Below, piece after piece: positions 2,547-42,787 of a DNA stretch of 44,607 nucleotides; within the stretch, counting starts at the first letter, position 1, and every line of letters starts with the position of its first letter. Where the stretch lies: positions 1 through 44,607 of the forward strand of contig JAFYAC010000059.1 of NCBI GenBank assembly GCA_017540905.1, in the 5' to 3' direction. Origin of the DNA: Kiritimatiellia bacterium. GTDB taxonomy: Bacteria; Verrucomicrobiota; Kiritimatiellia; CAIQIC01; Lenti-01. The position numbers and the translations under genes were made by a program. Under the pieces are notes generated by a model. That model did no database searches, was not told the origin of the DNA, and worked only from the letters and a program-made list of their open reading frames with translations.

Positions 2547-2575
2547 TTGCAGTGGCGCGGGGAACAGGGTATGGT
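2547..2575 (+). promoter_or_regulatory. Predicted sigma70-type promoter for the leader ORF and TSCPD gene
   Basis: TTGCAG (2547-2552), 17-nt spacer, TATGGT (2570-2575), then 6 nt to the ATG at 2582. This geometry puts the transcription start at or next to the ATG, so the mRNA would be leaderless. Confidence 0.55.
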
Positions 2576-2581
2576 GCCGCA

Positions 2582-2653
2582 ATGAACCACGGAACCTGCA
2601 TCGACGAACCGGCGGCCCCGCGCGCGCCGCGCCCCGAAGGAGACTCCCCATGA
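2582..2653 (+). CDS. Short upstream ORF (23 codons), translationally coupled to the TSCPD gene
   Basis: Begins 6 nt after the -10 box TATGGT and ends in TGA at 2651-2653, overlapping the ATG of the next gene (ATGA). It encodes a Pro/Arg/Asp-rich 23-residue peptide starting MNHGTCIDEP, with no recognisable domain and no signal peptide. The overlap suggests it feeds ribosomes to the downstream gene, which also has its own gaaggag Shine-Dalgarno inside this ORF. It could equally be a non-functional stretch of leader whose ATG is not used; ribosome profiling would decide. Confidence 0.4.
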   Translation: MNHGTCIDEPAAPRAPRPEGDSP

Positions 2654-3594
2654 CCACGTATCCCTGCACCGGCACCTGCTCGCGCTCGGTGAGCTTCGAC
2701 ATCGCCCCCGACGGCACGCTCGCCGCCTGCTCCTTCGAGGGCGGATGCCCCGGCAACACTGGCGGGGTCGCCAAGCTCGTCGTCGGGCGGCCCGCCGCCG
2801 AGGTCGCCGCGCTCCTCAAGGGAACCCCGTGCGGGCGGCGCGGGACGTCGTGCCCGGACCAGCTCGCGCGCGCCATCGAGAGCGAGCTCGCGAAGCGGAA
2901 CCCGCAGGGCGGCTTCTCCTACGTCATCCCCGTCGCGCTGCTCCTGGCGGTGGCGGTGTTCGCCTTCGTGGTGTACCGCTACCAGCTGGTGCAGCATCTG
3001 CCGGGCATTTCGGAGCTGCCGGTGAAGCCGGACATTCCGGTGTTCGCCGCGTTCCCCGACGCGGAGCCGTGCGTGTTCCCGGCCGCGGACGCGCGGCCGG
3101 ACCTCGCCCCCTCGCCGCCCGGCAGCGGCGACGTGCGCTGGGAGGCGTCGCCCTCCGAGGTGCGCGCGGCGGAGGGGATTCCGCCGTTCCGGACGTCGCC
3201 GACGGCCATCGTGTATTCGCTCGACGTCCTGAACCAGCCGTGCATGCTGACGTATTTTTTCCGCCGGGAGCGGCTCTACGGGGTCCAGTTCCAGTTCGCC
3301 TCGCCGGGTTCGGGGTTCCTGCCCGACCTCACGCCGCAGCAGGCCCGCAAGCTCTACGACCGCCTCAAGGGCCAGCTCGACGCCCGCTACGGGGACGCGG
3401 TGGAGACGACGACGTCGCATCCGCGCTCGGAGGGGGAGGGCGCGGACCCCGCGGACACGGTCGTCACGCGGCTCCTTTCGCAGTGGACGTCGGGGCCGAT
3501 GGCGGTGACGATGGTGCTCGACCTGTCCACGCCCGCCCCCAGCCTCGAAATCCGCTACAAGGCGACGCCCGCACGCCGCGGCGCGCGGGGGTGA
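2650..3594 (+). CDS. TSCPD-domain protein fused to a membrane-anchored C-terminal domain
   Basis: A 314-residue protein. Residues 1-80 match the small TSCPD family (TIGR03905-like; C6, C10, GGCPGN, then T66-S-C-P-D70), a cysteine-bearing module related to the C-terminal domain of some ribonucleotide reductases; family members normally end at about 80-90 residues. Here it is followed by one membrane segment at about 90-110 (VIPVALLLAVAVFAFVV) and a roughly 200-residue soluble region of unknown type with a Pro-rich linker. The TSCPD part would face the cytoplasm and the rest the periplasm if the basic residue rule holds. Start chosen for gaaggag at 8 nt spacing and the ATGA overlap with the leader ORF. 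No function is established for this fusion. Confidence 0.75.
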   Translation: MTTYPCTGTCSRSVSFDIAPDGTLAACSFEGGCPGNTGGVAKLVVGRPAAEVAALLKGTPCGRRGTSCPDQLARAIESELAKRNPQGGFSYVIPVALLLAVAVFAFVVYRYQLVQHLPGISELPVKPDIPVFAAFPDAEPCVFPAADARPDLAPSPPGSGDVRWEASPSEVRAAEGIPPFRTSPTAIVYSLDVLNQPCMLTYFFRRERLYGVQFQFASPGSGFLPDLTPQQARKLYDRLKGQLDARYGDAVETTTSHPRSEGEGADPADTVVTRLLSQWTSGPMAVTMVLDLSTPAPSLEIRYKATPARRGARG

Positions 3595-3621
3595 GGGGCG
3601 CCCCTGCGTCGCCCGTCCCAG

Positions 3622-3737
3622 GGTAGGGCGGGCAGTCCCCTGCCCGCCGGGCGCATGGGAAGCCATAGGGGAAACGGGACCTTGCGTGCTGATGCACGCC
3701 CCTTTCGCGCGGCGGCGAGGGGACTCGCCGCCCTACC
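3622..3737. repeat. REP doublet (REPIN-like) left of the RAYT gene
   Basis: REP 3622-3648 (head GGTAGG, stem GCGGGCAG, loop TCCC) and inverted REP 3711-3737 (head GGTAGG, stem GGCGAG), separated by about 62 bp. A near-identical doublet in the same orientation lies on the other side of the transposase gene at 4337-4451, including the spacer block TGCTGATGCACGCCCC. Confidence 0.85.
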
Positions 3738-3788
3738 ACTGCGTTGCGCACTCCAGAGGGAAGGGATGGGCAGTCCCCCGCCCGCTGT

Positions 3789-4292
3789 TCATCCGCCGTG
3801 TCTGGGCAACTCCTCGCCCGTGAAGGGATGGAACCCCAGCCAATGCGGCCATTCATCCGCATGCGCGGCCAACCCCTTCCGCACCGGATTGTTCCGGATG
3901 TACGTCCATGTTTCGCTCGTTTCGGCTTCGTTCCGCATGCGGTGCTCGAAGAAATCGCGCTGGAACGCAATGCCCGACGTCCGCGACAGATAATGTTTCC
4001 AGTTGGACACCGTCGCGGCCAAGGATGCATCCCTGGCCACGGAAAGCAGCGCATGGATGTGGTCCGGCATGACGAGAAAAAGGCGCAGGAACCAGACCCC
4101 GCGCTCTTGGCAATGGCGTGCAGCGGCCAACAAGGTGTCGGCCACTGGCAGGAACGGGGCCCCCGTTCGATTCCGCGCACAGACCGTGATGAATTGCACG
4201 GGGTCGGGCAACGAGGGGTAGGGCGCGGCGTCATGCGGCAACCGTGCGCGGACGGGGTAAGGCGGATGGGAGGGAACGGGAAAAATGTGCAT
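3789..4292 (-). CDS. REP-associated tyrosine transposase (RAYT, Y1/HUH family)
   Basis: A 167-residue single-domain HUH endonuclease of the TnpA_REP type, related to IS200/IS605 transposases; family members nick and move REP palindromes. Visible: VQFITVCARNR beta strand at about 32-42, HUH motif MPDHIHALL with His78 and His80, QRDFFEHRMRN at 111-121, and the catalytic Tyr131 in TWTYIRNNPVRKGL. All key residues are intact. The start at 4292 is supported by a promoter-like TTGACA-N17-CATTCT only 7 nt away; a longer frame continues upstream, but it runs through a REP and is unlikely. Flanked on both sides by REP doublets, the typical domesticated REPIN-RAYT layout, so it probably acts on these repeats. 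Confidence 0.9.
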   Translation of the reverse strand: MHIFPVPSHPPYPVRARLPHDAAPYPSLPDPVQFITVCARNRTGAPFLPVADTLLAAARHCQERGVWFLRLFLVMPDHIHALLSVARDASLAATVSNWKHYLSRTSGIAFQRDFFEHRMRNEAETSETWTYIRNNPVRKGLAAHADEWPHWLGFHPFTGEELPRHGG

Positions 4293-4299
4293 GGATGGA

Positions 4300-4328
4300 A
4301 GAATGTACAGGAACGAGTGTTTTGTCAA
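4300..4328 (-). promoter_or_regulatory. Predicted promoter of the RAYT gene
   Basis: On the minus strand: TTGACA (4328-4323), 17-nt spacer, CATTCT (4305-4300), 7 nt, ATG. The same boxes and spacings occur before the gene at 22564. Implies a leaderless transcript. Confidence 0.55.
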
Positions 4329-4336
4329 TGGATTTT

Positions 4337-4496: not shown

Positions 4497-4505
4497 GGGA
4501 GGGAG

Positions 4506-7130
<2,625 letters not shown>

Positions 7131-7446: not shown

Positions 7447-7463
7447 AAAGTCGTGATTGCCGC

Positions 7464-7574: not shown

Positions 7575-7931
7575 GGGGGCGACCCGGTTTCGACGTGCCT
7601 GTCGAAGTCACGGTTGCGCGCCGAGGTCCCCGGTTGGCCTCGTTAATCCACCGGGAAAAAACACAAAAGCCAACGACGAATTGGCCCTCGCGGCGTAATC
7701 ATTGCCGCGACGTCCGTCCCTCCTCCGCCTGCGGGAGGTGACGGGCGTCATGAGCAGGCTGGCGACCCCTCCCGGGCATCCGGGGAAGGGAGCGAGAACC
7801 CACAGGATGCTGGCGGTGCCGTTCGCCCGTCCGCGGACAGACGGCATGGCGAGACTCAATCGCGGAATACGCGCGTAGATGCCGTGGCAACGCTCGTGCG
7901 GACGGGAGTTCGACTCTCCCCGCCTCCACCA
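7575..7931 (+). ncRNA. ssrA: Transfer-messenger RNA (tmRNA)
   Basis: One-piece tmRNA that rescues stalled ribosomes and tags the nascent chain for ClpXP. The 5' end GGGGGCGACCCGGTTTCGACG-type tRNA-like half (first 7 nt GGGGGCG) pairs with CGCCTCC near the 3' end, followed by ACCA, so CCA is encoded. The T-arm is GACGGGAGTTCGACTCTCCC-like. The tag frame ends ANDELALAA followed by TAA (7669-7698); the segment before it reads GKNTK, so the tag is probably GKNTKANDELALAA, though the exact resume codon cannot be fixed by eye. 357 nt is a normal length. Confidence 0.95.
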
Positions 7932-11765: not shown

Positions 11766-11795
11766 TTGCCCCCCACCCCCCTCCCATCGTATGCT
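11766..11795 (+). promoter_or_regulatory. Predicted mlaE promoter
   Basis: TTGCCC (11766-11771), 18-nt spacer, TATGCT (11790-11795), then 7 nt to ATG 11803. No Shine-Dalgarno; leaderless geometry. Confidence 0.45.
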
Positions 11796-11802
11796 CCGCC
11801 CC

Positions 11803-12594
11803 ATGAGCAACTGGATTGGAGCCTTGGGCGGAAGCGTGCTGTCGCGGCTGGGTACGGCCGCGCGCCTCGCGGGCACCCTCTTCGCGGTCGCCTGGAAAAG
11901 CCTCCAGCCGCGCACCTGGACCGTCCCCTTCCGCAATGTCCTGGCCCGCCAGGTGCTGTTTACCGGCTACGAAGCCACCGGATTCGTCTCCCTCATCGCG
12001 CTCCTGTTCGGCGTGCTGGCCGTCGTCCAGGCCCAGATCTGGCTCGCCAAGTTCGGCCAGAGCGACCTCATCGGCCCCGTCCTCGTCGCCGTCGTCATCC
12101 GCGAACTCGGCCCGCTGCTCACGAATTTCGTGGTCATCGCCCGCAGCGGCACCGCCATCTCCACCGAGCTCGCGAACATGAAGGTCAACGGCGAGGTCCG
12201 CTCCCTCGACGCCATGGGCCTCGATCCCTTCGTCTACCTCGTGATGCCCCGCGTCCTCGGCGTGGCCGCCTCGACCTTCTGCCTGACGATCGTCTTCGCC
12301 GCCGTCTCCCTCCTCGGCGGCTACGCCTGCCTCTGGCTCCTGGAATGGGGCGACCTGGACATGGGCCGCTTCTTCTCGAACGTCCTCGGCGCCGTCCGCC
12401 AGGCCGACGTCGCGACGCTGCTGGCCAAGTCCATCCTGCCCGGCATGCTCACCGGCGCTTGCTGCTGCGAGGAAGGCCTGGGCGTCGGCCCCGCCGTCAC
12501 CGAAGTCCCCATCGCGGCCGCCCGCGGCGTCCTCCGCTCCATCGCCTCCCTCTTCATCCTCGCCGTCGTCATCGACCTTGCCGCCTACCTCTGA
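11803..12594 (+). CDS. mlaE: MlaE-family lipid ABC transporter permease
   Basis: Inner-membrane permease of the Mla/YrbE family that moves phospholipids between the membranes with an ATPase (MlaF) and an MCE-domain protein (MlaD). 263 residues, the usual size. Signature stretch ELGPLLTNFVVIARSG, followed by STELANMKVNGEVRSLDAMGLDP region (quoted in part), plus five to six hydrophobic segments. An upstream in-frame ATG at 11791 exists but lies in the -10 box. No mlaF or mlaD neighbour is visible; lgt follows after 15 nt, so the two envelope genes likely share a transcript. Partner subunits must be elsewhere. Confidence 0.85.
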   Translation: MSNWIGALGGSVLSRLGTAARLAGTLFAVAWKSLQPRTWTVPFRNVLARQVLFTGYEATGFVSLIALLFGVLAVVQAQIWLAKFGQSDLIGPVLVAVVIRELGPLLTNFVVIARSGTAISTELANMKVNGEVRSLDAMGLDPFVYLVMPRVLGVAASTFCLTIVFAAVSLLGGYACLWLLEWGDLDMGRFFSNVLGAVRQADVATLLAKSILPGMLTGACCCEEGLGVGPAVTEVPIAAARGVLRSIASLFILAVVIDLAAYL

Positions 12595-13424: not shown

Positions 13425-13445
13425 TCGTGAGATTATGGAAAACAC
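13425..13445 (+). repeat. Interspersed GAGATTAYGG motif, copy 3
   Basis: TCGTGAGATTATGGAAAAC, 41 nt after the lgt stop codon, same strand. Followed by CATTTCCC, which can pair with GGAAAA. Confidence 0.75.
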
Positions 13446-13563: not shown

Positions 13564-13582
13564 TCGTGAGATTACGGAAAAA
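13564..13582 (+). repeat. Interspersed GAGATTAYGG motif, copy 4
   Basis: TCGTGAGATTACGGAAAAA; the following CGTTTCCC can pair with GGAAA. It lies 139 bp after copy 3, in direct orientation. Confidence 0.75.
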
Positions 13583-13703: not shown

Positions 13704-13709
13704 TAGGAT
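13704..13709 (+). promoter_or_regulatory. Predicted -10 box of the RsbU-like gene
   Basis: TAGGAT followed by 7 nt and ATG 13717. No convincing -35. The AGGA within it could alternatively act as a Shine-Dalgarno. Confidence 0.35.
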
Positions 13710-13716
13710 GCCCCGC

Positions 13717-15567
13717 ATGAGCCAGAACCCCCAAGAAGACGCGTCCACCCAATCCCAGGCCACCATGCGGATCGACATCACGCCCGCGATGCTCGAGCAG
13801 CTGCAGCAGGCGCCCGTCGCGACCACGACCGCCCGCATCGCGCGCGGCGGCGCCGGGGCCTCCCCCTACGCCGGGCGGCCCGGCGGGCCCGCCGTCATCC
13901 GCATCCCCTCCGCGGTGGCGCGCCCGCTCGGCGGCGAGGATTTCCAGGTCCTGCTCCAGAGCATCTACGACGCCGTCTTCATCACCGACCCCGCGGGGGC
14001 CATCCAGACGGCCAACGCGCGCGCGGAACAGTTCTTCCACTCCACCCGCGCCGAATTCCGCAAGACGAACATCTTCGACTGGCTCTGCGGCGCCGAACGC
14101 AGCCTGCTCGACACCATCCTGGGGACGCTCCAGAACAACCGCTTTGTGTTGATCCAGGCGCTCTGCCGCCGCACCGACGAGACGATGTTCCCGGCGGAAA
14201 TCTCCGTATCGCACCTCAAGATCGGCGGCCAGCAGCACCTGAGCTTCTTCGTGCGCGACATCACGTTGCGGCGCGAGCGCGAGGAGCGCCTGCAGACCGG
14301 GTTCAACGCCTTGCAGAACGCCGGCGGCGGCATCGCCGTGGCGGACGTCGAAGGCGTCCTCGCCGGCTACGTCAACCCGGCCATGATGCAGCTCCTCGGC
14401 CTCGCCTCCGCCGAAGAGGCGATGCAGCACCGCTTCGACGAATTCATGGCCGAGCCCGCGCTGATGGCCGACATGCTGGAGAGCGCGCAGCAGGGCGGCA
14501 CCTGGGCGGGCGAACTCGAGATGCGCCGCACCGACGAAACCCCGTTCTTCGCGCAGGCGGCCCTCGCGCCCAACCTGAACCCCGACGGCGCGATGACCGG
14601 CATCGTCATCTCCCTCGTGGACGTGACCCCCGCCCGCACCGCCCAGCAGCAGCTGGAGCACTACGCCACGCAGCTGCGCCAGAAGAACGAGGAGATGGAG
14701 GCGGACCTGCGCATGGCGCGCGACCTCCAGTACGCCTTCCTGCCCGCCGGCTACCCCGCCGTCTCGGGTCCCGCCGGAACCCTCTCCTTCGCCCACGTCT
14801 ACCACCCGAGCGGGCTGGTCGGCGGCGACTTCTTCAGCCTCCTGAAACTCTCGCCCAGCCGCGTCATGGTCTTCGTCGCCGACGTCATGGGCCACGGCGT
14901 GCGCGCGTCGCTGGTCGTCGCGACCCTCCGCGGCCTGCTCGAACAGATCGCGAAGGAGACGCAGGAGCCCGGCGAATTCCTGACCCGCCTCAACGCGGCC
15001 TACTGCCGCATCTTCGGCCGCGCCGGCGAACTGATGTTCGCGACGGCCAGCTGCATGCGCATCGATGTCGCGGCCGGGGCCATCGCCTACGCCCACGCCG
15101 GCCACCCGCTCCCCATCGTGATGTCGACCGACGCCCCCGCGCACGAAGCGGCGGTGCCCGAAGACGTCCTCGGCCCGGCCCTCGGCCTCTTCCCCGACGC
15201 CGCCTACACCCAGTTCGCGGCCCCGCTGGCGCCCGGCGCGCAGTACCTCTTCTACACCGACGGCCTGACCGAGACCCGCAACGCCGCCCAGGACGAATTC
15301 TCCGAGGAAGGCCTCATCCATTCCCTCCAGGCGCACGGCGGCACCCCCCTCGACGCGCTCCTCTCCGCCATCGTCTCCGACGCCGCCGAATTCGGCTCCT
15401 GCACCGAATTCGAAGACGACGTCTGCCTTCTCGGCATCCGCTGCACCCCCCCCGCCCCGCCGTCCTGGCCCTCGGCCAGTTCGACGGCATCCACCTCGGG
15501 CACCAGGCCGTCCTTCGCGCCGCGCGCGACCTGGCGCGGGAGCTCGGCGCGAGGGCCCGGTGCCTGA
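13717..15567 (+). CDS. RsbU/SpoIIE-type PP2C phosphatase with two PAS domains
   Basis: A 616-residue soluble regulator. Order: low-complexity N-terminus (1-70), PAS domain (about 74-190, FITDPAGAIQTANARAE), second PAS domain (about 205-310), a short helical linker (LEHYATQLRQKNEEME), and a PP2C-type serine phosphatase (about 340-575) with metal-binding motifs GGDFF, ADVMGHG and YTDGLTE. Such proteins dephosphorylate anti-sigma antagonists in partner-switching pathways; no RsbV or RsbW gene is nearby. The phosphatase ends at about DDVCLLGIRC; the last 40 residues are read in the wrong frame through the start of ribF, after a run of eight C at 15446-15453. So the true end may differ (frameshift, fusion or assembly error). 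Confidence 0.85.
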   Translation: MSQNPQEDASTQSQATMRIDITPAMLEQLQQAPVATTTARIARGGAGASPYAGRPGGPAVIRIPSAVARPLGGEDFQVLLQSIYDAVFITDPAGAIQTANARAEQFFHSTRAEFRKTNIFDWLCGAERSLLDTILGTLQNNRFVLIQALCRRTDETMFPAEISVSHLKIGGQQHLSFFVRDITLRREREERLQTGFNALQNAGGGIAVADVEGVLAGYVNPAMMQLLGLASAEEAMQHRFDEFMAEPALMADMLESAQQGGTWAGELEMRRTDETPFFAQAALAPNLNPDGAMTGIVISLVDVTPARTAQQQLEHYATQLRQKNEEMEADLRMARDLQYAFLPAGYPAVSGPAGTLSFAHVYHPSGLVGGDFFSLLKLSPSRVMVFVADVMGHGVRASLVVATLRGLLEQIAKETQEPGEFLTRLNAAYCRIFGRAGELMFATASCMRIDVAAGAIAYAHAGHPLPIVMSTDAPAHEAAVPEDVLGPALGLFPDAAYTQFAAPLAPGAQYLFYTDGLTETRNAAQDEFSEEGLIHSLQAHGGTPLDALLSAIVSDAAEFGSCTEFEDDVCLLGIRCTPPAPPSWPSASSTASTSGTRPSFAPRATWRGSSARGPGA

Positions 15568-18836: not shown

Positions 18837-18856
18837 TCGTGAGATTATGGAAAACA
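18837..18856 (+). repeat. Interspersed GAGATTAYGG motif, copy 5
   Basis: TCGTGAGATTATGGAAAACA, 38 nt after the U32 gene stop, same strand. Confidence 0.75.
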
Positions 18857-19330: not shown

Positions 19331-20005
19331 TCAACGGGAGTGCGCCCGGACCAGCGCGTAGAAGCGGTCCTCGTACTCCTGGAACCGCCCCCGCCGCTTG
19401 AGGAGCCCGGCCAGCGCGGAAAGACTCGACTTGTCCCGCGCGGCCAGCCGGAAAGCGGCTTCGATCTCGTGCTTCGACCCGTCCGGATCCGCCCGCAGCT
19501 CCCGCGCATTCAGGGGCGCCGAGTTCCGGGTCATCCCGAAAAGCAGCGTCAGCAGGCTCACCTCCCACGGCTCGTCCACCCCCACCAGCAGCGCCGAATA
19601 CGGATCGTTCCGCGACTCTAAATCCGCCTTGACCCGATCCAGGACGTTCGGCAGCGCATCGTGCACCACCGTCTCGCTCAGCGTCTCCTGGCGGATCTTG
19701 AAGCCGTACTTGAGGATCGAGATATCCTGTTCCTGCAACCACCGAGCGAACGCTTCCGCCTGCTCCGACGCGAACCCCGACTCCAGCGGCGACTCCCGCA
19801 GCGAATCCGGCGTCAGGATTTGCGGGCGGAACGACTGGATACGCCCTTCCCGGATCCGCACCTGCCCCACGCTGTCCATTGGCTCCGCCAGCAGGTGGTA
19901 GCGCACCAGCGTCACCCCGAACGTCTCCAGACGGCCGCGCGGCATCAGCACGATCTGCGTGTTGTGCACGGCGTACCAGAAATCGAATGCCCGGGTTTCT
20001 TCCAT
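19331..20005 (-). CDS. Conserved-looking hypothetical protein
   Basis: A 224-residue soluble protein that I do not recognise. No signal peptide, no membrane segments. It begins MEETRAFDFWYAVHNTQIVL and is rich in charged residues, with an N-terminal beta-rich half and a C-terminal helical half; a TPR-like ending (LLKRRGRFQEYEDRFYALV) is possible. Codon use follows the neighbours, and the frame has a strong promoter at leaderless spacing before ATG 20005 (TTGCAA-N17-TATAGA-N6), which supports it being real and fixes the start. It is convergent with the U32 gene. Next upstream on the same strand is lptA, 177 nt away, with motif copy 6 between. Confidence 0.75.
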   Translation of the reverse strand: MEETRAFDFWYAVHNTQIVLMPRGRLETFGVTLVRYHLLAEPMDSVGQVRIREGRIQSFRPQILTPDSLRESPLESGFASEQAEAFARWLQEQDISILKYGFKIRQETLSETVVHDALPNVLDRVKADLESRNDPYSALLVGVDEPWEVSLLTLLFGMTRNSAPLNARELRADPDGSKHEIEAAFRLAARDKSSLSALAGLLKRRGRFQEYEDRFYALVRAHSR

Positions 20006-20011
20006 GCCCGT

Positions 20012-20040
20012 TCTATACGCCACCGCACCCGCCCTTGCAA
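20012..20040 (-). promoter_or_regulatory. Predicted promoter of the hypothetical gene
   Basis: Minus strand TTGCAA (20040-20035), 17-nt spacer, TATAGA (20017-20012), 6 nt, ATG. One of the clearest leaderless-type promoters in the window. Confidence 0.65.
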
Positions 20041-20071: not shown

Positions 20072-20090
20072 CCGCGAGATTATGGAAAAC
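20072..20090 (+). repeat. Interspersed GAGATTAYGG motif, copy 6
   Basis: CCGCGAGATTATGGAAAAC, between two minus-strand genes and opposite to them in orientation. Confidence 0.75.
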
Positions 20091-20742: not shown

Positions 20743-21252
20743 TCACGGGTTTTGGGCTTCTGGCGGAACGGCGATGTCCTCGAGCGGCTCGCTGGCCGCG
20801 GGCTCGGAGAGCGCGTCGTCGAGCGACGAGTCGAGGATGACCTTGGCGTTGTGGAAAATCTGGAACTGCGCGTTCTCGCCGTTCCAGGCAAAACCGTCGC
20901 CGGTCACGATCCCCCGCCCGGTGACGATCCGGATGTGGTCCTTGGACGCGGCCTTCTTCTGGGTCGGGGCGTACGCGCATTCCGGCGAGAACACCCGCGC
21001 CACCACTTCCCCCTCGTTGAAGATTTCAATCTTCAGGCCGGTCAGCTGGATGATGTTGTCGGCCAGGAAGGTCGCGGTCTCGCCGTACAGCTGGTGCTGC
21101 AGGCGCCCGTCGGAGCCGTATTCGGGCAACCGGAAATTCTTGATGGTCTGCCCCTGCATCTGGGCAAGCGCGGCGGGCGCGGCGGCCAGCGCGGCCGCCA
21201 GCGCGAGGGCCGCGGCCGCGGGACGGAACCGGGGTGTTGCGAACGGATTCAT
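20743..21252 (-). CDS. LptC-like / LPS-assembly-related periplasmic protein
   Basis: A 169-residue protein with an Ala-rich N-terminal signal or anchor (about 10-30, ending AALAQ) and a beta-strand pattern (GRLQHQLYGETATFLADN, IIQLTGLKIEIFNEGEVVARVFS, RIVTGRGIVTGDGFAWNGE in parts) typical of LptC, which passes LPS from the LptBFG transporter to LptA. The position directly before lptA with an 8-nt gap supports this. It has an unusual acidic C-terminal tail of about 35 residues. The start is fixed by a leaderless-type promoter 7 nt away. It could instead be a second OstA-fold protein. Confidence 0.7.
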   Translation of the reverse strand: MNPFATPRFRPAAAALALAAALAAAPAALAQMQGQTIKNFRLPEYGSDGRLQHQLYGETATFLADNIIQLTGLKIEIFNEGEVVARVFSPECAYAPTQKKAASKDHIRIVTGRGIVTGDGFAWNGENAQFQIFHNAKVILDSSLDDALSEPAASEPLEDIAVPPEAQNP

Positions 21253-21259
21253 GCGTGCA

Positions 21260-21288
21260 ACTTAATGCGTCTGCCGGGAAAAAGGCAA
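21260..21288 (-). promoter_or_regulatory. Predicted promoter of the lptC-lptA pair
   Basis: Minus strand TTGCCT (21288-21283), 17-nt spacer, TTAAGT (21265-21260), 7 nt to ATG. No Shine-Dalgarno, leaderless geometry. Confidence 0.5.
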
Positions 21289-22506: not shown

Positions 22507-22526
22507 CCGCGAGATTATGGAAAACA
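22507..22526 (+). repeat. Interspersed GAGATTAYGG motif, copy 7
   Basis: CCGCGAGATTATGGAAAACA immediately upstream (2 nt) of the -35 box of the next gene, so it could influence that promoter. Confidence 0.75.
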
Positions 22527-22527: not shown

Positions 22528-22556
22528 TTGACATCCCCCCGCGCCCGCCCCATTCT
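22528..22556 (+). promoter_or_regulatory. Predicted promoter of the unknown gene at 22564
   Basis: TTGACA (22528-22533), 17-nt spacer, CATTCT (22551-22556), 7 nt to ATG. Same boxes and spacing as the RAYT promoter. Confidence 0.55.
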
Positions 22557-22563
22557 CGCGCCC

Positions 22564-23484
22564 ATGAAAACGCAACTCCTCAACGCCCTCCGCAACACCG
22601 GCCGCGTCCTCGACGGCCTCGACCGCATCAACCGCCAGGATGTCGGCCGCATCCACGCCGACCGCTGCATCCCCATTCTCATGGCCCTCGCGCCGCCGGT
22701 CTTCGCCGCGTTCGTCCTCGGCGAAGTCGGCATGTGGGCCATCGACGAAATCCGCCACCAGGTCCGCATCCGCGAAAAGCGCCCCGCCTCCCCCTCCCTG
22801 CGCGGCACCCCCACGCCCAAGGAAATCGCCGCCGACTGGGCCGACCGCCCCCGTTCCCTCGCCACCTGCCTGCGCCTCGCCTCCCGGCTGGCCGACCTCG
22901 ACCCCACGCTCGACCACACGCTCGTCCTCCGCGAACTCCCCAGCGGCAAGAAACTCATCCGCGCCCGGAAGGGCGGCATGAAAGGCTGGCTGGAAGACCA
23001 CCGCGTGGCCGTCTCCTATCCCACCGTCATGCGCTACAAGAAGCTCGCCCAGCGCCTCCGCCGCGTGCTGGAGCTCGACGACCGCCTCCCGCTCGAATGG
23101 GCAATGTCCGGCCTCCCCGAAAACCAATTCCTAGATCCCGACCTCGCCGCACAGCTCGCGGCCGCGTCCCGCCGCCTGGCCAAAATCCTCCGCGACAATT
23201 CCTCCCTGGCCGCCCTCACCCGCGAAGTCGAACGCAAGCTTGGCATCCTCCGTCTCGTGACCGTGCGGAAGAGCCGCGGTCCGAGATGCGGAAAAGGACG
23301 GAAAAACAATGGGTTTTCCGTAATCTCGCGAGGACGGCGGGCGAACGTCTCCCCGGGGCGCGTCGAAGCGACGAAGACCGCGATGGCGAGGCTGCTCAAG
23401 GCCCGCAACCTGTCCGGTCCGGCCCTGCATCTCCAAAACCGCCTGGCCATCTGGCTGTCCGGGCTGCCCCCGGCCGCCCCTTGA
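22564..23484 (+). CDS. Uncharacterised protein with HTH-like segment
   Basis: A 306-residue protein I do not recognise. A hydrophobic stretch near 39-57 (PILMALAPPVFAAFVLGEVG) may be a membrane or buried helix. The middle contains VAVSYPTVMRYKKLAQRLRR, which looks like a helix-turn-helix recognition helix as in phage or plasmid DNA-binding proteins; this is weak. About residues 236-262 are encoded by, and around, a copy of the GAGATTAYGG motif (23313-23331), with the local sequence GKGRKNNGFSVISRG having a different character from the rest, so the gene has absorbed a repeat. It is transcribed towards the AlkD-like gene, 4 nt tail to tail. Confidence 0.65.
   Translation: MKTQLLNALRNTGRVLDGLDRINRQDVGRIHADRCIPILMALAPPVFAAFVLGEVGMWAIDEIRHQVRIREKRPASPSLRGTPTPKEIAADWADRPRSLATCLRLASRLADLDPTLDHTLVLRELPSGKKLIRARKGGMKGWLEDHRVAVSYPTVMRYKKLAQRLRRVLELDDRLPLEWAMSGLPENQFLDPDLAAQLAAASRRLAKILRDNSSLAALTREVERKLGILRLVTVRKSRGPRCGKGRKNNGFSVISRGRRANVSPGRVEATKTAMARLLKARNLSGPALHLQNRLAIWLSGLPPAAP
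23313..23331 (-). repeat. Interspersed GAGATTAYGG motif, copy 8, inside a coding sequence
   Basis: TCGCGAGATTACGGAAAAC on the minus strand within the gene at 22564-23484. On that strand GGAAAAC and a downstream GTTTTTCC can pair. Confidence 0.8.
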
Positions 23485-25669: not shown

Positions 25670-25966
25670 TCACTTCAGCGCCTCCAGCACTGGCGTCGCG
25701 AAAGCCCACACGCCGGTCAACGTCCCCACCTCGTCCCGCAGCGCCTGCAACCGCGCCATCAGCGCCGCGGCGGCCGCGTCCCCGCGCACCGCCAGGATGG
25801 CGGCGTTCGCGCCGGGCCACACCGAATTGTCGAGGCGGGGGCCGCTCTGCGGGCCGTCGCCGGTGAGGCGGGGCCAGCGCGTGTAGCCGCCCGGCGCGGC
25901 CTCCCGGAGGGCGGCGAGGATGTCGGAGTCGATCACGATGTCGTAAAGGATCCAAACGGCTTTCAT
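25670..25966 (-). CDS. PII-like signalling protein, next to the antiporter
   Basis: A 98-residue protein, MKAVWILYDIVIDSDILAAL at the start, then GGYTRWPRLTGDGP..., a Trp-Pro-Gly-Ala-Asn-Ala-Ala-Ile-Leu stretch and a final helix. This pattern (KA-hhhhY, G-h-TRW, NxAIL) recalls small PII-superfamily trimers that sense nucleotides or metals and often sit beside transporters; the classic T-loop tyrosine is not obvious. Start 25966 has aggaga 9 nt upstream. A second ATG at 25984 lies exactly 6 nt after a TATCGT -10-like box and could be used by a leaderless transcript, adding MQETLE. Likely co-transcribed with the antiporter, so it may regulate it. Confidence 0.6.
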   Translation of the reverse strand: MKAVWILYDIVIDSDILAALREAAPGGYTRWPRLTGDGPQSGPRLDNSVWPGANAAILAVRGDAAAAALMARLQALRDEVGTLTGVWAFATPVLEALK

Positions 25967-26083
25967 CTCCAAAGTCTCCTGCATTGCATGCCGCCACGAT
26001 AGCACACCCCCGCCTCCTTGCCTACGGGTTTCGCCAATCCGCAGCCCGCGGCCTTTCCGCCTCCCCGCCCGCAACCGTCCCGG

Positions 26084-26278
26084 CCCGCGAGATTATGGAA
26101 AATAGGGCTTTTCCGTCGATTTCGCCCCGCGGCCGGCGGGCCGGAGGGTTCACGGTCCGCGGCGGGGGGGGGCGGCCGCGCGCCGCCGCCGGGGGGCGGA
26201 TGGCCGGCCCGTGTTTGGAAGGGGAGAAGGATGGGTGGTAATATGTGGAAAATGGAAGGGTTTTCAATAATCTCGCGA
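26084..26278. repeat. Inverted pair of GAGATTAYGG motifs (copies 10 and 11)
   Basis: Copy 10 (+ strand, 26084-26101, CGCGAGATTATGGAAAAT) has a perfect GGAAAA-N6-TTTTCC hairpin (26097-26114). Copy 11 (- strand, 26259-26278) faces it, about 150 bp away. Together they form a doublet like the REP pairs. They fill the 380-bp gap between the PII-like gene and the SH3 gene; between them is a Pro/Gly-codon-like GC-rich stretch with no convincing ORF. Confidence 0.7.
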
Positions 26279-26310: not shown

Positions 26311-26340
26311 TTGCGGGGAGGGCGGGGGGCGGGATAGAGT
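26311..26340 (+). promoter_or_regulatory. Predicted promoter of the SH3/nadD/rsfS operon
   Basis: TTGCGG (26311-26316), 18-nt spacer to TAGAGT (26335-26340), 6 nt to ATG 26347; an alternative -10 is GATAGA (26333-26338, spacer 16). Leaderless geometry, no Shine-Dalgarno. Confidence 0.45.
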
Positions 26341-26346
26341 GCGGGC

Positions 26347-27615
26347 ATGAAGAAAACGATTTTGATTGTTGCATTGGTTGCGGCGGCGGTGGCCGGCTCG
26401 CAGGCGGAGGAACGGCGCATGCAGGTGCGCTCGCCCGGCGCCAAGGTACACTCCCGTCCGGAGGCGTCCGCGCCCCAGCTGGGCACGGTGCCGGGGGGCG
26501 ACATCGTGTTCGTCTCGCGCACCGAGGGCGGCTGGGCGGCCATATCGCCCCCGACCAGCGTCGGCGTGTGGATCAACACGGTGTTCGTCGAGGACGGGCA
26601 CGTGGTGGCCAAGAGCATCCAGGTGCGCTCGGGCCCCGGCATCGAGCACGACATCGTGGGCACTCTCCAGCGCGGCGCCCCGGTGCTGCCGCTCGAGGAA
26701 TCGGGCGAGTGGTGCAAGATATCGCCGCCGTCGTCGATGACGGTCTGGGTGCAGGAGAGCACGCTGTCGGCGGTCCCGGAGCAGACGGAGCCCATCCGCG
26801 AAGTGGCCCCGCCCGCGGCCCCGGCCCCCGCACCCGCCCCGGCCCCAGCTCCCGCGCCCGCCCCCGAACCGGCGCCCGTGGTGGCCCCCGCACCGGCCCC
26901 AGCGCCGGCCCCGGCGCCGGCCCCCGCACCGGCGCCCGCTCCCGCCCCAGTCAAGGTCGAACCGTCGAAACCCGCGCCCGCGCCGAAACCGGCGGCCCAG
27001 CCCAAGCCCGCCGTGCAGGCCAAGCCGCTGGCCGTGCAACCGAAACCCCTGGCCGTGCAACCCAGGCCGGTGGCCCAGCCGCCCCGTCCGGCGGCCCAGC
27101 CGTCCAAGCCGGTACTGAAGCCGGTGGCCCCGTCGCGGCCGATGACGCAGACGCCGCCGGCGTCCTCCCCCTCCTCCTCCTCCGTCGTGTTCCCGGCCGG
27201 GCCGGTGGAGCCGCATCCGCAGCCGGCGGCCGGCGGATTCCAGCCGATGGTCGCCCCCTTCCCGGCCGCCCCGCGGCCGCGCCCGGGCCTTGACGCGATG
27301 ACCGACGAACCGGTGGACCCGGAGCTGGTGGACGCCCTGAACCTGCGCGACGACGCCCCGTACCAGGGGCATTCCTGCCGCGTCACCGGGCAGCTGCGCA
27401 ACGCCCCGCTGGCATCGGCCACCCCGTCCCGCTACCGTCTCCTCGTCCGCAAGGACGGCCAGGTGCTGACGCGCTGCTACGTCCACGGCGACACCGGCCT
27501 CCTGCGCCCCTACACGGGCAAGAACGTCAGCATCCGCGGCAAGGAATACTGGGTGGACGAGGACGCGGAGATTCCCGTCGTCGTGGTCGGCCAGATCGCC
27601 CCCGCCGGCGAATGA
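26347..27615 (+). CDS. Secreted protein with two SH3-like domains and a long Pro/Ala linker
   Basis: A 422-residue periplasmic protein. Signal peptide MKKTILIVALVAAAVAGSQA. Two bacterial SH3-like repeats (about 24-85 and 86-142; VRSPGAKVHSRPEASAPQLG, and VRSGPGIEHDIVGTLQRGAP with WCKISPPSSMTVWV), then an extended linker (about 148-275) of repeated AP and KP units, and a C-terminal beta-rich domain (about 320-422; RYRLLVRKDGQVLTRCYVHG) that may bind a ligand. SH3b domains usually bind cell-wall peptides. The alternating Ala-Pro run suits spanning the periplasm. It overlaps nadD by four bases, an odd partnership. Confidence 0.8.
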   Translation: MKKTILIVALVAAAVAGSQAEERRMQVRSPGAKVHSRPEASAPQLGTVPGGDIVFVSRTEGGWAAISPPTSVGVWINTVFVEDGHVVAKSIQVRSGPGIEHDIVGTLQRGAPVLPLEESGEWCKISPPSSMTVWVQESTLSAVPEQTEPIREVAPPAAPAPAPAPAPAPAPAPEPAPVVAPAPAPAPAPAPAPAPAPAPAPVKVEPSKPAPAPKPAAQPKPAVQAKPLAVQPKPLAVQPRPVAQPPRPAAQPSKPVLKPVAPSRPMTQTPPASSPSSSSVVFPAGPVEPHPQPAAGGFQPMVAPFPAAPRPRPGLDAMTDEPVDPELVDALNLRDDAPYQGHSCRVTGQLRNAPLASATPSRYRLLVRKDGQVLTRCYVHGDTGLLRPYTGKNVSIRGKEYWVDEDAEIPVVVVGQIAPAGE

Positions 27616-37405: not shown

Positions 37406-38800
37406 TCAGAGGTTCGGCCCCGTCGACTCCGCCACCAGCTTTCCGTACTCCGCCTCCGTCAGCAAGCCCTTCTCCAGCGCGAGCTCCTTCAGCGTCATCC
37501 CCCGCGCCAGTCCCTCCTTGACGAGGCCCGCGACCCGGTCGTAACCCAGCCGCGGATTCAGGATCGTCGCCAACCCCGCGCTACGTTCCAGGTTCGCCCG
37601 GCACCGTTCCTCCCGCGCCTCGATGCCCTCCACGCACTTCTCCGCCAGCAGCCCCGCCGCCCGTTCCAGCAACTCCAGCTCCCGCAGCACGTCGGCGGCG
37701 ACCAGCGGCATGTGGGTGTTCAGCTCCAGCTGTCCCGCGCCGCACGCGAGCGCCACCGCGTGGTCCAGCCCCTGAATCTGCATCATCGCCATGTTGACCG
37801 CCTCGCAGATGGACGGATTCACCTTTCCCGGCATGATGCTCGACCCCGGCTCCACCGCCGGCAACGATATCTCCCCGATCCCCGTGTTCGGGCCCGACGC
37901 CAGCAACCGCAGGTTGTTCGCAATCTGCTGGATGTCCAGCGCCGCGCACCGCACCGCGCCCGAAAGCGCCGCGAAGTCCGTCAGAAACTGCGTGGCCTGC
38001 AAGCCATCCTCCGCCACCCGGAACCGCACCCCCGTACGCCGGTTCAGGGCCGCGATCAAATCCTTACGGAAAGCCTTCCCCGTGTTGACGCCGGTCCCCA
38101 CCGCGTTCCCGCCCGCCCCGAGTTCGAGCAGCGGCTCCCCGCCCCGCCGGAGCCGGGCCGCCGCCTTGGCGACGGCCACGCCCCACGCGGCGAACTCCTG
38201 GCCGAGCGTGACCGGCACCGCGTCCTGCAAATGCGTGCGCCCCGACTTGACCACCCCGGCGAACTCCTTCCCCTTCGCTTTGAGGGCGTCCGCGAGCCCG
38301 TCCAGCGCATCCGCCACGCCCGGCAGCGCCAGCACGGCCGCGACCTTCGCGCCGGAGGGGAACGTGTTGTTGGTGGACTGCCCCATGTTCACGTCGTCGT
38401 TCGGGTGCACGGGCGACTTGCTCCCCTTCTTGCCCCCGAGCCGCACGTTGGCGAGGTTCGCGACCACCTCGTTGAGGTTCATGTGCGACGACGTACCCGA
38501 GCCCGCCTGGTACACCGGCAGCGCGAACTCCCCGTCCATCCGCCCCGACACCACCTCCCCGCAGGCCCACGCGATCGCCTCCGCCTTTTCCTCCGGGAGC
38601 CGCCCCTCCGCGAGGTTCGCGTCCGCGGCGGCGGCCTTGAGCAGCGCCATGCCCCGGACCACCTCCATCGGCAGGCGCTCCCCGTCCCCGAAGGGGAAAT
38701 TCTCGATCGACCGCGACGTCTGCGCCCCGTACCACGCCGCGTCCGGCACCATGCGTTCCCCCATCGAATCCCGTTCCAGCCTGCATTTCGTCTTTTTCAT
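37406..38800 (-). CDS. fumC: Fumarase/aspartase superfamily lyase, probable class II fumarate hydratase
   Basis: A 464-residue protein, the usual size of FumC, which interconverts fumarate and malate in the citrate cycle. Signature GSSIMPGKVNP at about 316-326 and THLQDAVPVTLGQE at about 187-200 are intact, as are YQAGSGTSSHMNLNEVVAN and HPNDDVNMGQSTNNTF. The last motif is STNN rather than the usual SSND, and the region after the signature (GAGQLELNTHMPLVAADVL) has aspartase-like features, so aspartate ammonia-lyase is an alternative. Start 38800: a TATGGT box lies 6 nt upstream, matching the leaderless pattern. Divergent from the LRR gene at 38905. Confidence 0.8.
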   Translation of the reverse strand: MKKTKCRLERDSMGERMVPDAAWYGAQTSRSIENFPFGDGERLPMEVVRGMALLKAAAADANLAEGRLPEEKAEAIAWACGEVVSGRMDGEFALPVYQAGSGTSSHMNLNEVVANLANVRLGGKKGSKSPVHPNDDVNMGQSTNNTFPSGAKVAAVLALPGVADALDGLADALKAKGKEFAGVVKSGRTHLQDAVPVTLGQEFAAWGVAVAKAAARLRRGGEPLLELGAGGNAVGTGVNTGKAFRKDLIAALNRRTGVRFRVAEDGLQATQFLTDFAALSGAVRCAALDIQQIANNLRLLASGPNTGIGEISLPAVEPGSSIMPGKVNPSICEAVNMAMMQIQGLDHAVALACGAGQLELNTHMPLVAADVLRELELLERAAGLLAEKCVEGIEAREERCRANLERSAGLATILNPRLGYDRVAGLVKEGLARGMTLKELALEKGLLTEAEYGKLVAESTGPNL

Positions 38801-38806
38801 GCCCCC

Positions 38807-38812
38807 ACCATA
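38807..38812 (-). promoter_or_regulatory. Predicted -10 box of the fumarase-family gene
   Basis: Minus strand TATGGT, 6 nt before ATG 38800. No clear -35 at the right distance. Confidence 0.35.
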
Positions 38813-38869: not shown

Positions 38870-38898
38870 TTGCACCCCGGGCGCGGGCAGGCGATAGT
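38870..38898 (+). promoter_or_regulatory. Predicted promoter of the LRR gene
   Basis: TTGCAC (38870-38875), 17-nt spacer, GATAGT (38893-38898), 6 nt to ATG 38905. Leaderless geometry. Confidence 0.55.
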
Positions 38899-38904
38899 GT
38901 CCCC

Positions 38905-39777
38905 ATGCAGAAAAACCATTCGACGAAACACGCCCTGCCCCTTTTGCAAACCGCCCTGGCGGCCGCCTGCGCGGCCCTGTGGCTTGCGGCGGCCGCCCCG
39001 CGTCCGGCCCTGGCCGACCACGAAGTGGTCGACGGCATCAAGTGGGTCTACGAGACCGACGACGGAAAGGCTTCCCTCGGTGCCATGGCCGTCCCGCGCT
39101 CCACCGAAGGCACCGTCACGGTTCCCGCCCGCCTGGGCGGCTGCCCGGTCGAGGAAATCGGCGACTATGCCTTCTACGACTGCGCCCGCATCACCCGGAT
39201 CGTCCTCCCCAAGGGCGTCAAGCGGCTCGGCGAGCACGCCTTCCAGAACTGCACCTCCCTCGAAAGCGTGGAGCTGCCGGATTCGGTGGACGACATGGAC
39301 GGCTACTACATCTTCATGGACTGCACCGCCCTGAAGTCGGTCACCCTCCCGCGCAAGGTGGCGGCGGTGGGGGCCTACGCGTTCTTCGGCTGCAGCGCGC
39401 TGGAGACGGTGGAGTGGCCGGCCGCGCTGGAGGAAATCGGCCTGAGCGCCTTCTCCCACTGCCGGTCGCTCAAGGAAATCCATTTCCCCCGCAAGCTGGA
39501 CCGGATCCGCCCGTACGCCTTCTGCGAATGCGACTCGCTCCGCACGCTGGTGTTTCCGGAATCGCTGTCCGTCATCCAGGAAAGCGCCTTCTACAGCTGC
39601 CGCGCCCTCCGCGAACTGGTGCTCCCCAAGAACCTGGAAGGCATCGGCGACAACGCCTTCCTCAACACCGGCTTGGAGCGCGTGACGGTCCTCGGCAACC
39701 CTGAAGGCGACCGCACCGACTGGGGCCGCATCTGGGGCCTCCCCAAGGATTGCGAGCTCTCCGTCCCCGGACAGTAG
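38905..39777 (+). CDS. Secreted leucine-rich repeat protein (BspA/LRR_5 type)
   Basis: A 290-residue exported protein with a signal-like N-terminus (about 10-36, ending PALA). Residues 72-260 are at least seven LRR_5-type repeats of about 23 residues with the consensus pattern IGDYAFYDCARITRIVLPKG, LGEHAFQNCTSLESVELPDS, VGAYAFFGCSALETVEWPAA, each with the Phe-x-x-Cys step. BspA-type LRRs bind surface or host proteins and are abundant in gut and rumen bacteria. It has no anchor at the C-terminus, so it is secreted or loosely bound. REP doublet and repeats follow directly. Confidence 0.9.
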   Translation: MQKNHSTKHALPLLQTALAAACAALWLAAAAPRPALADHEVVDGIKWVYETDDGKASLGAMAVPRSTEGTVTVPARLGGCPVEEIGDYAFYDCARITRIVLPKGVKRLGEHAFQNCTSLESVELPDSVDDMDGYYIFMDCTALKSVTLPRKVAAVGAYAFFGCSALETVEWPAALEEIGLSAFSHCRSLKEIHFPRKLDRIRPYAFCECDSLRTLVFPESLSVIQESAFYSCRALRELVLPKNLEGIGDNAFLNTGLERVTVLGNPEGDRTDWGRIWGLPKDCELSVPGQ

Positions 39778-40408: not shown

Positions 40409-40468
40409 TGAACGGGGATGTGGCTTTTCTTGCGAGCCCGGCGGCGGGGGCCAACGCCCCGGGCAACG

Positions 40469-40499: not shown

Positions 40500-40523
40500 G
40501 CACGGTTTGCGTTTTCGCGGGAA

Positions 40524-41378: not shown

Positions 41379-41527
41379 GTATTCTTTCTCCTTGTTGGTT
41401 TGGTTTGCCGCTTGCATCGGCTTTGAACGCGCGGAAATGTCGGTGTTTTTTGCCGGAATGTCAATCCGTTTCGCATTGGGGCGGCCGACCCGCCCCAAAA
41501 ACGGCGCGCCCGGCGGGGAAAAACGGA

Positions 41528-41554
41528 TTGCAAAGAAGGGGGGGATGATATAAA
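41528..41554 (+). promoter_or_regulatory. Predicted promoter of tRNA-Ser
   Basis: TTGCAA (41528-41533), 15-nt spacer, TATAAA (41549-41554), 16 nt before the tRNA 5' end. The spacer is short. Confidence 0.4.
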
Positions 41555-41570
41555 AGGGCGGGCGTCTTGC

Positions 41571-41661
41571 GGAGAGATGGCTGAGCGGCCTAAGGCACCT
41601 GACTCGAAATCAGGCGATCGTGTTGAGCGGTCCGTGGGTTCAAATCCCACTCTCTCCGCCA
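41571..41661 (+). tRNA. tRNA-Ser (anticodon CGA)
   Basis: Acceptor stem GGAGAGA/TCTCTCC, anticodon stem-loop CCTGA-CTCGAAA-TCAGG giving anticodon CGA, a long variable arm (class II, serine), T-arm GTGGGTTCAAATCCCAC, and encoded CCA. 91 nt. Reads UCG codons, which fit this GC-rich genome. A protein gene begins 22 nt after it. Confidence 0.97.
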
Positions 41662-41683
41662 TTTTTGTGCAAACGGGAACGAC

Positions 41684-42742
41684 ATGAGCGCACCAGGCGG
41701 AAAACTGAACTTGGACGAGGCGATGGGCCGCAGGCCCAACGTCGAGCCGGAAATCAAGCCGACCCTCCGCATCAAGCGGTCGGACCTGAAGGTCCTGCGG
41801 CGGAAACCGGAGCCGAAGAAGCGCACGATGGCGTTCGGGATCGGGGCCGCCGCCGTGGCGGTCGTCCTGGGCGTGGCGCTGTGGTTCTCCCGGGGGGCCT
41901 GGCTGCCGTTCTGGCAATCGATGGTCCCGTCGCCGGAAAGCGCGGAAACGGCGGAGTCCGCGGGGACGGACGGGGAGGAAGGCGTGGCGCTTGGGGAGGA
42001 CGCGGGCGGGGACGCGGAGGCGGCGCGGGCGGCGGAGCCGGAGGCGCTCCCGTTCGAGGGCGGGTCGCTGCCGCCGCCGGAGACGCTGTCGTACTTTTCC
42101 GCCGCCGGCTGGGACAACGAGTCCTTCAAGCAGGCGGTGCGGCACTTCAACGCGGGCTTCGACGCGTACAAGGCGTTCCTGGCGGACGACACGTCCTCCC
42201 GCCCGCTCGCGGTGGCCGAGACGGAGGCCATCGAAACGCTGAAGCTGCTGAAGGAAGCGGCCGGCGACATCCCGCCGGGCATGCGCACCGAGGTGGCGTT
42301 CGACGTGCTGGAAGCGCGGTCGCTGCTGGCGGAAGTGCGGCGGCTGGCCCGCGACCCGTCGGCCCGCGCCGGGGCGGCGGCCGCCCGCAAGCCGGAGACG
42401 CCGGCCGCGCAGGACAACCTCTCCAGCCGGCCGAAGGTCTGGAAGAACCCCGACTACCTGGAGGCGGCGCGCACCTTCAACCGGGCCGTCGCGAAGTACA
42501 GGGAGTTCCTGGCCGACAAGGCCGGGAAGCAGGCGCTCCTGAAGGAAATCGAGGACGACGCGTTCGCCGCGGCCAAGAAGTTCGAGTCGCTGAAGGGGCA
42601 GGCCCCGTCCGGCATCCCCCTCCAGGACCACATCACGCAGTGCTACAAGCTGATTTCCGACTGCCGCCGCCAGCAGCTCGGGAGCCCGGCGCCGCAGGCC
42701 CCCCGCGGGCGGGCGCACCCGGCCCGGCGGCCGGCCCCCTGA
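41684..42742 (+). CDS. Membrane-anchored protein with a duplicated helical domain
   Basis: A 352-residue protein I do not recognise. A basic cytoplasmic N-terminus (1-48) precedes one membrane segment (about 50-67, AFGIGAAAVAVVLGVALWF), then an acidic linker and two copies of one helical module: WDNESFKQAVRHFNAGFDAY-KAFLAD at about 143-168, and WKNPDYLEAARTFNRAVAKY-REFLAD at about 247-272, each followed by a helix and a conserved P-x-G/S segment (DIPPGMRTEVAFDVLEAR and GIPLQDHITQCYKLIS). The second half is therefore a duplication. Periplasmic or extracytoplasmic side presumed. It follows tRNA-Ser by 22 nt and may share its transcript. No clear Shine-Dalgarno. Confidence 0.7.
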   Translation: MSAPGGKLNLDEAMGRRPNVEPEIKPTLRIKRSDLKVLRRKPEPKKRTMAFGIGAAAVAVVLGVALWFSRGAWLPFWQSMVPSPESAETAESAGTDGEEGVALGEDAGGDAEAARAAEPEALPFEGGSLPPPETLSYFSAAGWDNESFKQAVRHFNAGFDAYKAFLADDTSSRPLAVAETEAIETLKLLKEAAGDIPPGMRTEVAFDVLEARSLLAEVRRLARDPSARAGAAAARKPETPAAQDNLSSRPKVWKNPDYLEAARTFNRAVAKYREFLADKAGKQALLKEIEDDAFAAAKKFESLKGQAPSGIPLQDHITQCYKLISDCRRQQLGSPAPQAPRGRAHPARRPAP

Positions 42743-42753
42743 AGAAGAAGACT

Positions 42754-42781
42754 TTGCGGCGGGCGCCGGGCGTGGTATAGG
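42754..42781 (+). promoter_or_regulatory. Predicted promoter of the second nucleotidyltransferase
   Basis: TTGCGG (42754-42759), 16-nt spacer, TATAGG (42776-42781), 6 nt to ATG 42788. GGGGGG could also serve as a Shine-Dalgarno, so leaderless use is uncertain. Confidence 0.4.
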
Positions 42782-42787
42782 GGGGAC

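Follow-up and report, generated by a model that had tools for sequence, protein, structure and literature searches.

Leaderless initiation is often regarded as a property of entire phyla. Akkermansia belongs to the same phylum as the Kiritimatiellae in GTDB terms and to a different class. In the parts of the published reports drawn on here, Cappable-seq of Akkermansia muciniphila placed 10% of transcription start sites (TSSs) at annotated gene starts (PMC4782308), a -35 element raised the output of a -10 element adjacent to an open reading frame (ORF) in Deinococcus-Thermus (PMC12340547), and an upstream ORF beginning at a 5'-terminal AUG (5'-uAUG) could affect downstream expression in Escherichia coli (PMC4965119). 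We found no account of leaderless genes in Kiritimatiellae in the literature searched at class, phylum and Akkermansia level, most records being judged without their text. In this study, we analysed a 44,607-nt stretch (the window), which is contig C86 of the metagenome-assembled genome of an uncultured rumen bacterium of the Kiritimatiellae (MAG; 3.51 Mb, 178 contigs, 84% complete), and in which an earlier note had described widespread promoters with a -10 box 6-7 nt before an ATG and no Shine-Dalgarno (SD) sequence. The window has a GC content of 69.6%. By gyrA it is closest, among named relatives, to Kiritimatiellae bacterium RGIG6649 (sheep rumen) and uncultured bacterium RUG11196, each at 99%. 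The results indicate that leaderless or ultra-short-leader genes very probably coexist with SD-led genes here, their promoters being placed for transcription to start at or just before the ATG. Promoter spacing and its conservation, SD scarcity, position in the unit and stop-start overlap are read directly from the DNA.

The strongest single result came from the comparison of orthologues. We used the matches listed in searches with four window genes, at most 30 each for the MlaE permease, the NTP-transferase-like protein and the fumarase/aspartase-like lyase and at most 20 for the SpoIIE phosphatase; the window's own copies, locus L202 (start cut off), and L129 and one lyase locus outside the family (no usable start) were left out. 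The results showed that TANNNT lay 5-10 nt before the ATG in 50 of 57 same-family starts, comprising 12/12 with a usable start for MlaE (11803), 14/17 for SpoIIE (13717), 11/12 for the lyase (38800) and 13/16 for the NTP transferase (42788). All other distances from 0 to 40 nt gave 11 matches altogether, and an SD-like 4-mer was present in 5/57. Across the other Kiritimatiellae (three genes), TANNNT at 5-10 nt was found in 4/44 starts and an SD-like 4-mer in 28/44. The spacing is thus kept among family orthologues, whose rows are not independent, several genomes coming from one genus. Since TANNNT is kept within the family and the same genes are mostly SD-led outside it, this comparison indicates that SD-led initiation and initiation with no leader or an ultra-short one have replaced each other at orthologous genes.

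Counts within the genome were made on a sample consisting of the window and 20 further stretches (400.6 kb, 245 predicted genes), where d is the number of nt between the end of the -10 hexamer and the ATG and a scored promoter reaches a weight-matrix score of 6. The strict promoter pattern was TTGM-N16-18-TANNNT-N6-ATG, with the reversed pattern and N12 in place of N6 as controls. The whole genome held 45 strict matches, compared with 1 for the reversed control and 11 with N12. With N6-7, the genome held 102 matches against 5 reversed; 18 family genomes gave 1182 against 92. Sample genes scoring at least 6 numbered 11 at d=6, 7 at d=7 and 3 at d=8, while the other 41 distances tried averaged about 1 gene with a maximum of 5 (d=25). 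Among in-frame codons, TANNNT at d=6-7 preceded 9/401 ATG, 0/314 GTG and 1/147 TTG. These results show that a -10-like TANNNT about 12 bp before the start codon stands above the reversed and spacing-shifted controls, and that the pattern is genuine and well above chance. A promoter at 5-10 nt was found for 21/245 predicted genes vs 5 at the control distance of 14-19 nt, a net share of about 6.5%, so that "widespread" overstates the case if a major share of genes is meant.

The starts carrying these promoters mostly lacked SD sequences. An SD-like 4-mer stood before 2 of the 21 leaderless ATGs in the sample (at least one of them inside the -10) and before the coding-best start in 1/21, vs 87/245 of all genes. 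Where the upstream neighbour was known, 16/19 leaderless-type genes were first in their own unit, compared with 111/203 of the others (p=0.015). We then considered 43 strict own-genome matches (3 inside the window and 40 outside it, where two of 42 were dropped as duplicates): 26 headed an ORF of at least 60 codons with a coding score above 10, a criterion reached by 2133/9609 ATGs in the sample (22%) and by 339/2779 outside predicted genes (12%). When the codon table was trained on the 30 loci from the family search, two of them from this genome, 18 of these loci passed the same coding threshold and 19 passed at 5.

SD initiation is present alongside. An SD-like 4-mer occurred in the SD window of 87/240 genes vs 22-38 in ten of 11 upstream-shifted windows (72 at the nearest shift, 3 nt), and by these counts of sample genes SD sequences are not rare in the genome, as Bacteroidia-type SD scarcity would have them. 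The SD sites attributed earlier to gyrA (7130), ygfK (11427), rdgC (22415) and the antiporter (25632) were all found. The search of this 84%-complete MAG gave no 16S match for reading the anti-SD. A table in PMC10783764, in the portion of that paper used here, appears to place Kiritimatiellae under CCUCCUUU.

We propose that housekeeping-type promoters (-35 TTGC/TTGA, 16-18 nt spacer, -10 TANNNT) would set RNA polymerase to start at the A of the ATG or up to about 4 nt earlier. Because transcription would start at or near the ATG, the resulting mRNA would carry no SD. By analogy with other bacteria, fMet-tRNA-charged 30S or 70S ribosomes with IF2 would engage it at the 5'-terminal AUG. This mode would serve a minority of promoter-proximal genes (the 6.5% net of controls), with SD initiation for many others. 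In a second form, the 5'-terminal AUG would open a mini-ORF (6-31 codons) with a stop codon overlapping the start codon of an SD-led gene, which would let the terminating ribosome reinitiate there.

The second form is represented in the window by ATG 2582. This ATG is not the start of the main gene; it opens a 23-codon ORF overlapping ATG 2650 of an SD-led TSCPD-domain gene, and is on its sequence a coupled mini-ORF start, not that of a leaderless protein gene. We filtered for such cases by a promoter score of at least 6.5 at an ATG no more than 110 nt upstream of a gene start having an SD-like 4-mer. All 7 filtered mini-ORFs (6 independent, two being near-duplicates on one contig) had a stop overlapping a start of the downstream gene; the overlap of the mycobacterial type is RTGA, and here it is TTGA in L278 and TTGA or TGATG in L082:3845. 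In G104/RUG11196 (probably one genome), the 2582 mini-ORF retains its promoter, its ATG where +1 is expected and, counted by eye, its length of 23 codons and its ATGA overlap. In RGIG6649/G090 (probably one genome), the TSCPD gene is 98% alike, but its surroundings differ and this leader is missing. We considered purifying selection on the peptide encoded at 2582 and dropped the idea: counted by eye, amino-acid-changing codon differences outnumber silent ones against the relative.

At 2582 and similar sites, the ATG at +1 might instead be incidental, in which case the mRNA would be an ordinary SD-leadered one with a short 5' untranslated region and the mini-ORF would go untranslated. We regard this as a serious possibility, though short of probable. 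Between the window and G104/RUG11196 the peptide sequence of the 2582 mini-ORF is not kept, coupling is present in 30% of upstream frames taken arbitrarily, and L285, outside the filtered list, has a leaderless-type 30-codon ORF that is uncoupled and ends about 30 nt before the next ATG. Under the 30% null, however, the probability of coupling in 6 of 6 independent cases is 7.5e-4 (0.039 under a frame-matched null that is partly circular), so coupling exceeds chance, and the conserved +1 position, length and overlap likewise argue for the coupled form.

A more far-reaching model, which we put forward as unlikely, is that the 5'-terminal AUG would be a general ribosome entry in this Kiritimatiellae family. 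It would feed leaderless genes directly and SD-led genes via mini-ORFs that pass on terminating ribosomes, some SDs would serve reinitiation and not first initiation, and the orthologue set would have gone from SD-led to leaderless together at the origin of the family.

The promoters may be genuine and the leaders 1-10 nt long, making the genes ultra-short-leadered rather than leaderless, a version that we consider doubtful. Family orthologue distances spread over 5-10 nt (18 at 7 nt, 12 at 9, 10 at 10, 6 at 8, 5 at 6 and 1 at 5, two starts being counted at two distances), and several MlaE orthologues have ACG or AAG at the position of the window's ATG, with the start codon one codon later. 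In the genome itself, the peak lies at 6-7 nt. The usual rule of 7-8 nt would place +1 at the A of the ATG for a spacing of 6-7 nt. In either case there is no room for an SD. The orthologue distances make leaders of 0 to about 4 nt the safer claim. The earlier statement that transcription begins at the start codon and that two modes coexist is the best-supported reading (spacing kept in the family, SD scarce, genes first in their unit, GTG and TTG nearly without the promoter), except that a leader of strictly zero length is not supported.

It is improbable that the true starts lie elsewhere with SDs of their own and that the -10 boxes belong to leadered transcripts. Start prediction is uncertain, and an SD-like 4-mer also precedes ATG 26419, which lies downstream of 26347. 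Against this, family alignments begin no more than 5 residues from the ATG in close MlaE orthologues and no more than 3 in those of the NTP transferase, and it is the ATG nearest the aligned start that carries the -10 in the 50 of 57 orthologues.

Several points weigh against leaderless or ultra-short-leader initiation as we describe it. With distances among orthologues reaching 10 nt, many leaders would seem to measure 1-4 nt and not zero. Near predicted starts, TANNNT at d=6-7 precedes 3/213 ATGs that are out of frame vs 9/401 in frame, a control that alone does not separate the two, partly because mini-ORFs start out of frame by nature; among five out-of-frame cases at d=5-8, three are coupled mini-ORFs, one (25989) is likely coupled and one (L091) is unexplained. 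Same-genus stretches of 171 kb (111 predicted genes) show a small strict peak, with 3 in-frame ATGs at d=7, 2 at d=8 and 0 at d=6. Seventeen of the 43 strict matches fall below the coding criterion, some of them being mini-ORFs or short proteins. Gene starts were predicted by a home-made gene finder, and the -35/-10 weight matrix was set by hand with the genome's own matches in view. C at -1 was rejected as an initiator signature: it occurs in 34/43 unique matches vs 34% of all ATGs, but also in 41/68 SD genes (p=0.06), and does not discriminate. That the pattern is chance in GC-rich intergenic DNA plus selective listing is highly improbable: the indecisive out-of-frame control, a window denser than the sample and the relaxed -10 hexamers (CATTCT, TATAGA) of the earlier list speak for it, whereas the reversed and spacing-shifted controls refute it for the whole set and orthologue conservation stands against it, and chance may still apply to single sites such as 4292.

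We examined the eleven start sites of the earlier list individually (Table 1). At all 11 there is an ATG, and a -10-like hexamer ends 6-7 nt before it, as had been claimed, while strict TANNNT at 5-10 nt is present at 7/11 only, namely at 6-7 nt for 2582, 11803, 13717, 21252, 26347 and 38800 and at 9 nt for 4292. One conserved -10 base is missing at the claimed spacing at 20005, 38905 and 42788, and 38905 has an additional TAGTGT 4 nt before the ATG; at the claimed 7 nt, 4292 and 22564 have TTGACA with a weak -10 only (-10 score 1.97). The weight-matrix score reached 6 at 9/11 sites, the remaining 13717 and 42788 scoring 5.7 and 5.8. Site 13717 also has an SD-like 4-mer, AGGA, which is located inside its own -10. 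At score 6, the window was richer than the rest of the sample (6/31 vs 15/214 predicted genes, Fisher p=0.034), and the genome-wide rate is therefore not to be read off the window.

Table 1. Promoters, genes, mini-ORFs and repeats, in window coordinates unless a locus is named; promoters are given as -35, spacer, -10, distance and ATG.
Feature	Position	Strand	Remarks
TTGCAG-17-TATGGT, 6 nt, ATG 2582	2547..2584	+	Putative leaderless mini-ORF start; promoter and ATG shared with G104/RUG11196 (probably one genome)
23-codon mini-ORF	2582..2653	+	TGA overlaps ATG 2650 (ATGA)
TSCPD-domain gene, 314 aa	2650..3594	+	SD GAAGGAG; coupled to mini-ORF; PF12637 E=9.6e-20
TTGACA-17-CATTCT, 7 nt, ATG 4292	4290..4328	-	167-aa Y1_Tnp-like protein (PF01797 E=2.3e-4, below Pfam cut-off); weak -10, alternative TACATT at 9 nt
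tmRNA gene	7575-7931	+	Tag ANDELALAA; between gyrA and ygfK
TTGCCC-18-TATGCT, 7 nt, ATG 11803	11766..11805	+	MlaE permease
TAGGAT, 7 nt, ATG 13717	13704..13719	+	PAS/SpoIIE phosphatase; no recognisable -35, though most relatives have TTGC
TTGCAA-17-TATAGA, 6 nt, ATG 20005	20003..20040	-	224-aa protein, no Pfam match
TTGCCT-18-TAAGTT, 6 nt, ATG 21252	21250..21288	-	LptC-like protein
TTGACA-17-CATTCT, 7 nt, ATG 22564	22528..22566	+	306-aa multicopy orphan family; weak -10
306-aa orphan family copies	22564-23484; L084:2290, L085:16548, L087:10982, L094:15833	+ (window copy)	
Possible further coupled mini-ORF	25963..25991	-	TANNNT 6 nt before ATG 25989, 8 codons, TGA overlaps SD-led ATG 25966; outside scored promoters and filtered list
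TTGCGG-18-TAGAGT, 6 nt, ATG 26347	26311..26349	+	SH3-domain protein
TATGGT, 6 nt, ATG 38800	38798..38812	-	Fumarase/aspartase-like lyase; weak -35
TTGCAC-17-GATAGT, 6 nt, ATG 38905	38870..38907	+	LRR_5 protein
TTGCGG-16-TATAGG, 6 nt, ATG 42788	42754..42790	+	NTP-transferase-like protein (PF12804 E=6.4e-5, below cut-off)
TTTTCC(A/G)TAATCTC element	8022, 23314, 24252, 26261, 40389	+	24252 and 26261 deviate from the motif
TTTTCC(A/G)TAATCTC element	2490-2503, 13429-13442, 13568-13581, 18841-18854, 20076-20089, 22511-22524, 26089-26102, 36225	-	36225 deviates from the motif

The window and its genome also hold a dispersed element, TTTTCC(A/G)TAATCTC, mostly intergenic and in both orientations, with GGAAAA repeats upstream of many copies. 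Exact copies numbered 96 in the genome (0 for reversed controls). Two genomes of the same genus had 74 and 53, a further genus of the family had 21, and each of the other 53 genomes searched had 0-3. The element lies within 200 nt upstream of 7/26 leaderless-type starts vs 7/220 other genes. We rejected it as the cause of the promoters and treat it as a separate feature, since its copies point either way and some of them sit inside genes or past 3' ends. The 306-aa orphan family, with no Pfam match, has 5 copies in 400 kb, the others being 45-64% identical to the window's. Close to the 3' end, three copies include the dispersed motif, each time in the same frame, and in two copies an inverted motif precedes the start by about 47 nt. 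The family is possibly a mobile unit.

Three further repeats were observed. A near-palindrome, GGAAAAG-TTTTCC, covers the -35 region of many NTP-transferase family orthologues (most of L152-L164, and L179) by eye and is unclear in the window copy (42700-42790); it is a possible candidate operator. Three nearby leaderless-type promoters at G090:C59:78445, 79430 and 80086 all have the stretch TTGATGCTCTTTGAGAATGGGATACACT in identical form, which points to a set that was duplicated or is co-regulated. The intergenic repeat GAGCGGTTTAAGAAAT occurs at about 1792-1807 of the window and in L276 and L281, and one strict promoter match (L281) arises inside it. Identity to the same-genus genomes is uneven: 98-99% for SpoIIE (13717-15567), whose homology breaks near residue 580 in both relatives, 99% for gyrA (4509-7130), 75% for MlaE (11803-12594), and for the TSCPD gene 98% in G090 and 79% in G104. 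This unevenness suggests recombination or mixed bins.

Beyond the family, the ratio of pattern matches at d=6 to those at d=12 was at least 1.70 in 13/14 groups, with extremes of 1.02 (f40, 9 genomes) and 4.38 (f10, 5 genomes); the ratios were summed over 147 of the 288 genomes of a phylum sample, chosen by family or genus, the other 141 staying outside the sums. Here the same genes differ inside and outside one family, and the orthologues form a natural series for what drives and permits a switch of initiation. Gene callers trained on SD sequences may misplace starts in these uncultured genomes.

In kind, the system is ordinary; the switching is unusually clear, and the coupled mini-ORF form is added to it. 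The following comparisons hold as far as the portions of the cited papers drawn on here describe each system. In A. muciniphila, TSSs were mapped, whereas our data are sequence only, and those portions of that report contain no orthologue comparison (PMC4782308). The TA-led leaderless genes of Zheng et al. 2011 (PMC3160421) are alike in that TANNNT stands some 12 bp ahead of the start, its middle positions being uninformative, and in that the genomes are high-GC; the present case differs in lying in a Kiritimatiellae family, in its clear -35 at many sites and in the orthologue switching, and the main text of that paper contains no word beginning Verrucomicrob, Akkermansia or Opitutus. Deinococcus-Thermus likewise has a TANNNT -10 directly before the ORF with classical SD genes alongside, at about 30% of ORFs on average vs about 6.5% net here, by another method and in another phylum (PMC12340547). 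The mini-ORFs resemble those of mycobacteria (Shell et al. 2015, PMC4633059), where the TGA of a leaderless small ORF lies over the start of the next gene and the architecture is kept where the peptide is not; 23/220 were coupled there vs 7/7 here, where the set is small and was chosen for its promoter score and for an SD preceding the following gene. They also resemble the 5'-uAUG mRNAs of E. coli (Beck et al. 2016, PMC4965119), in which a 5'-terminal AUG and an SD-led gene share one message; unlike that experimental work, our comparison draws on DNA alone and finds a stop-start overlap in every filtered case.

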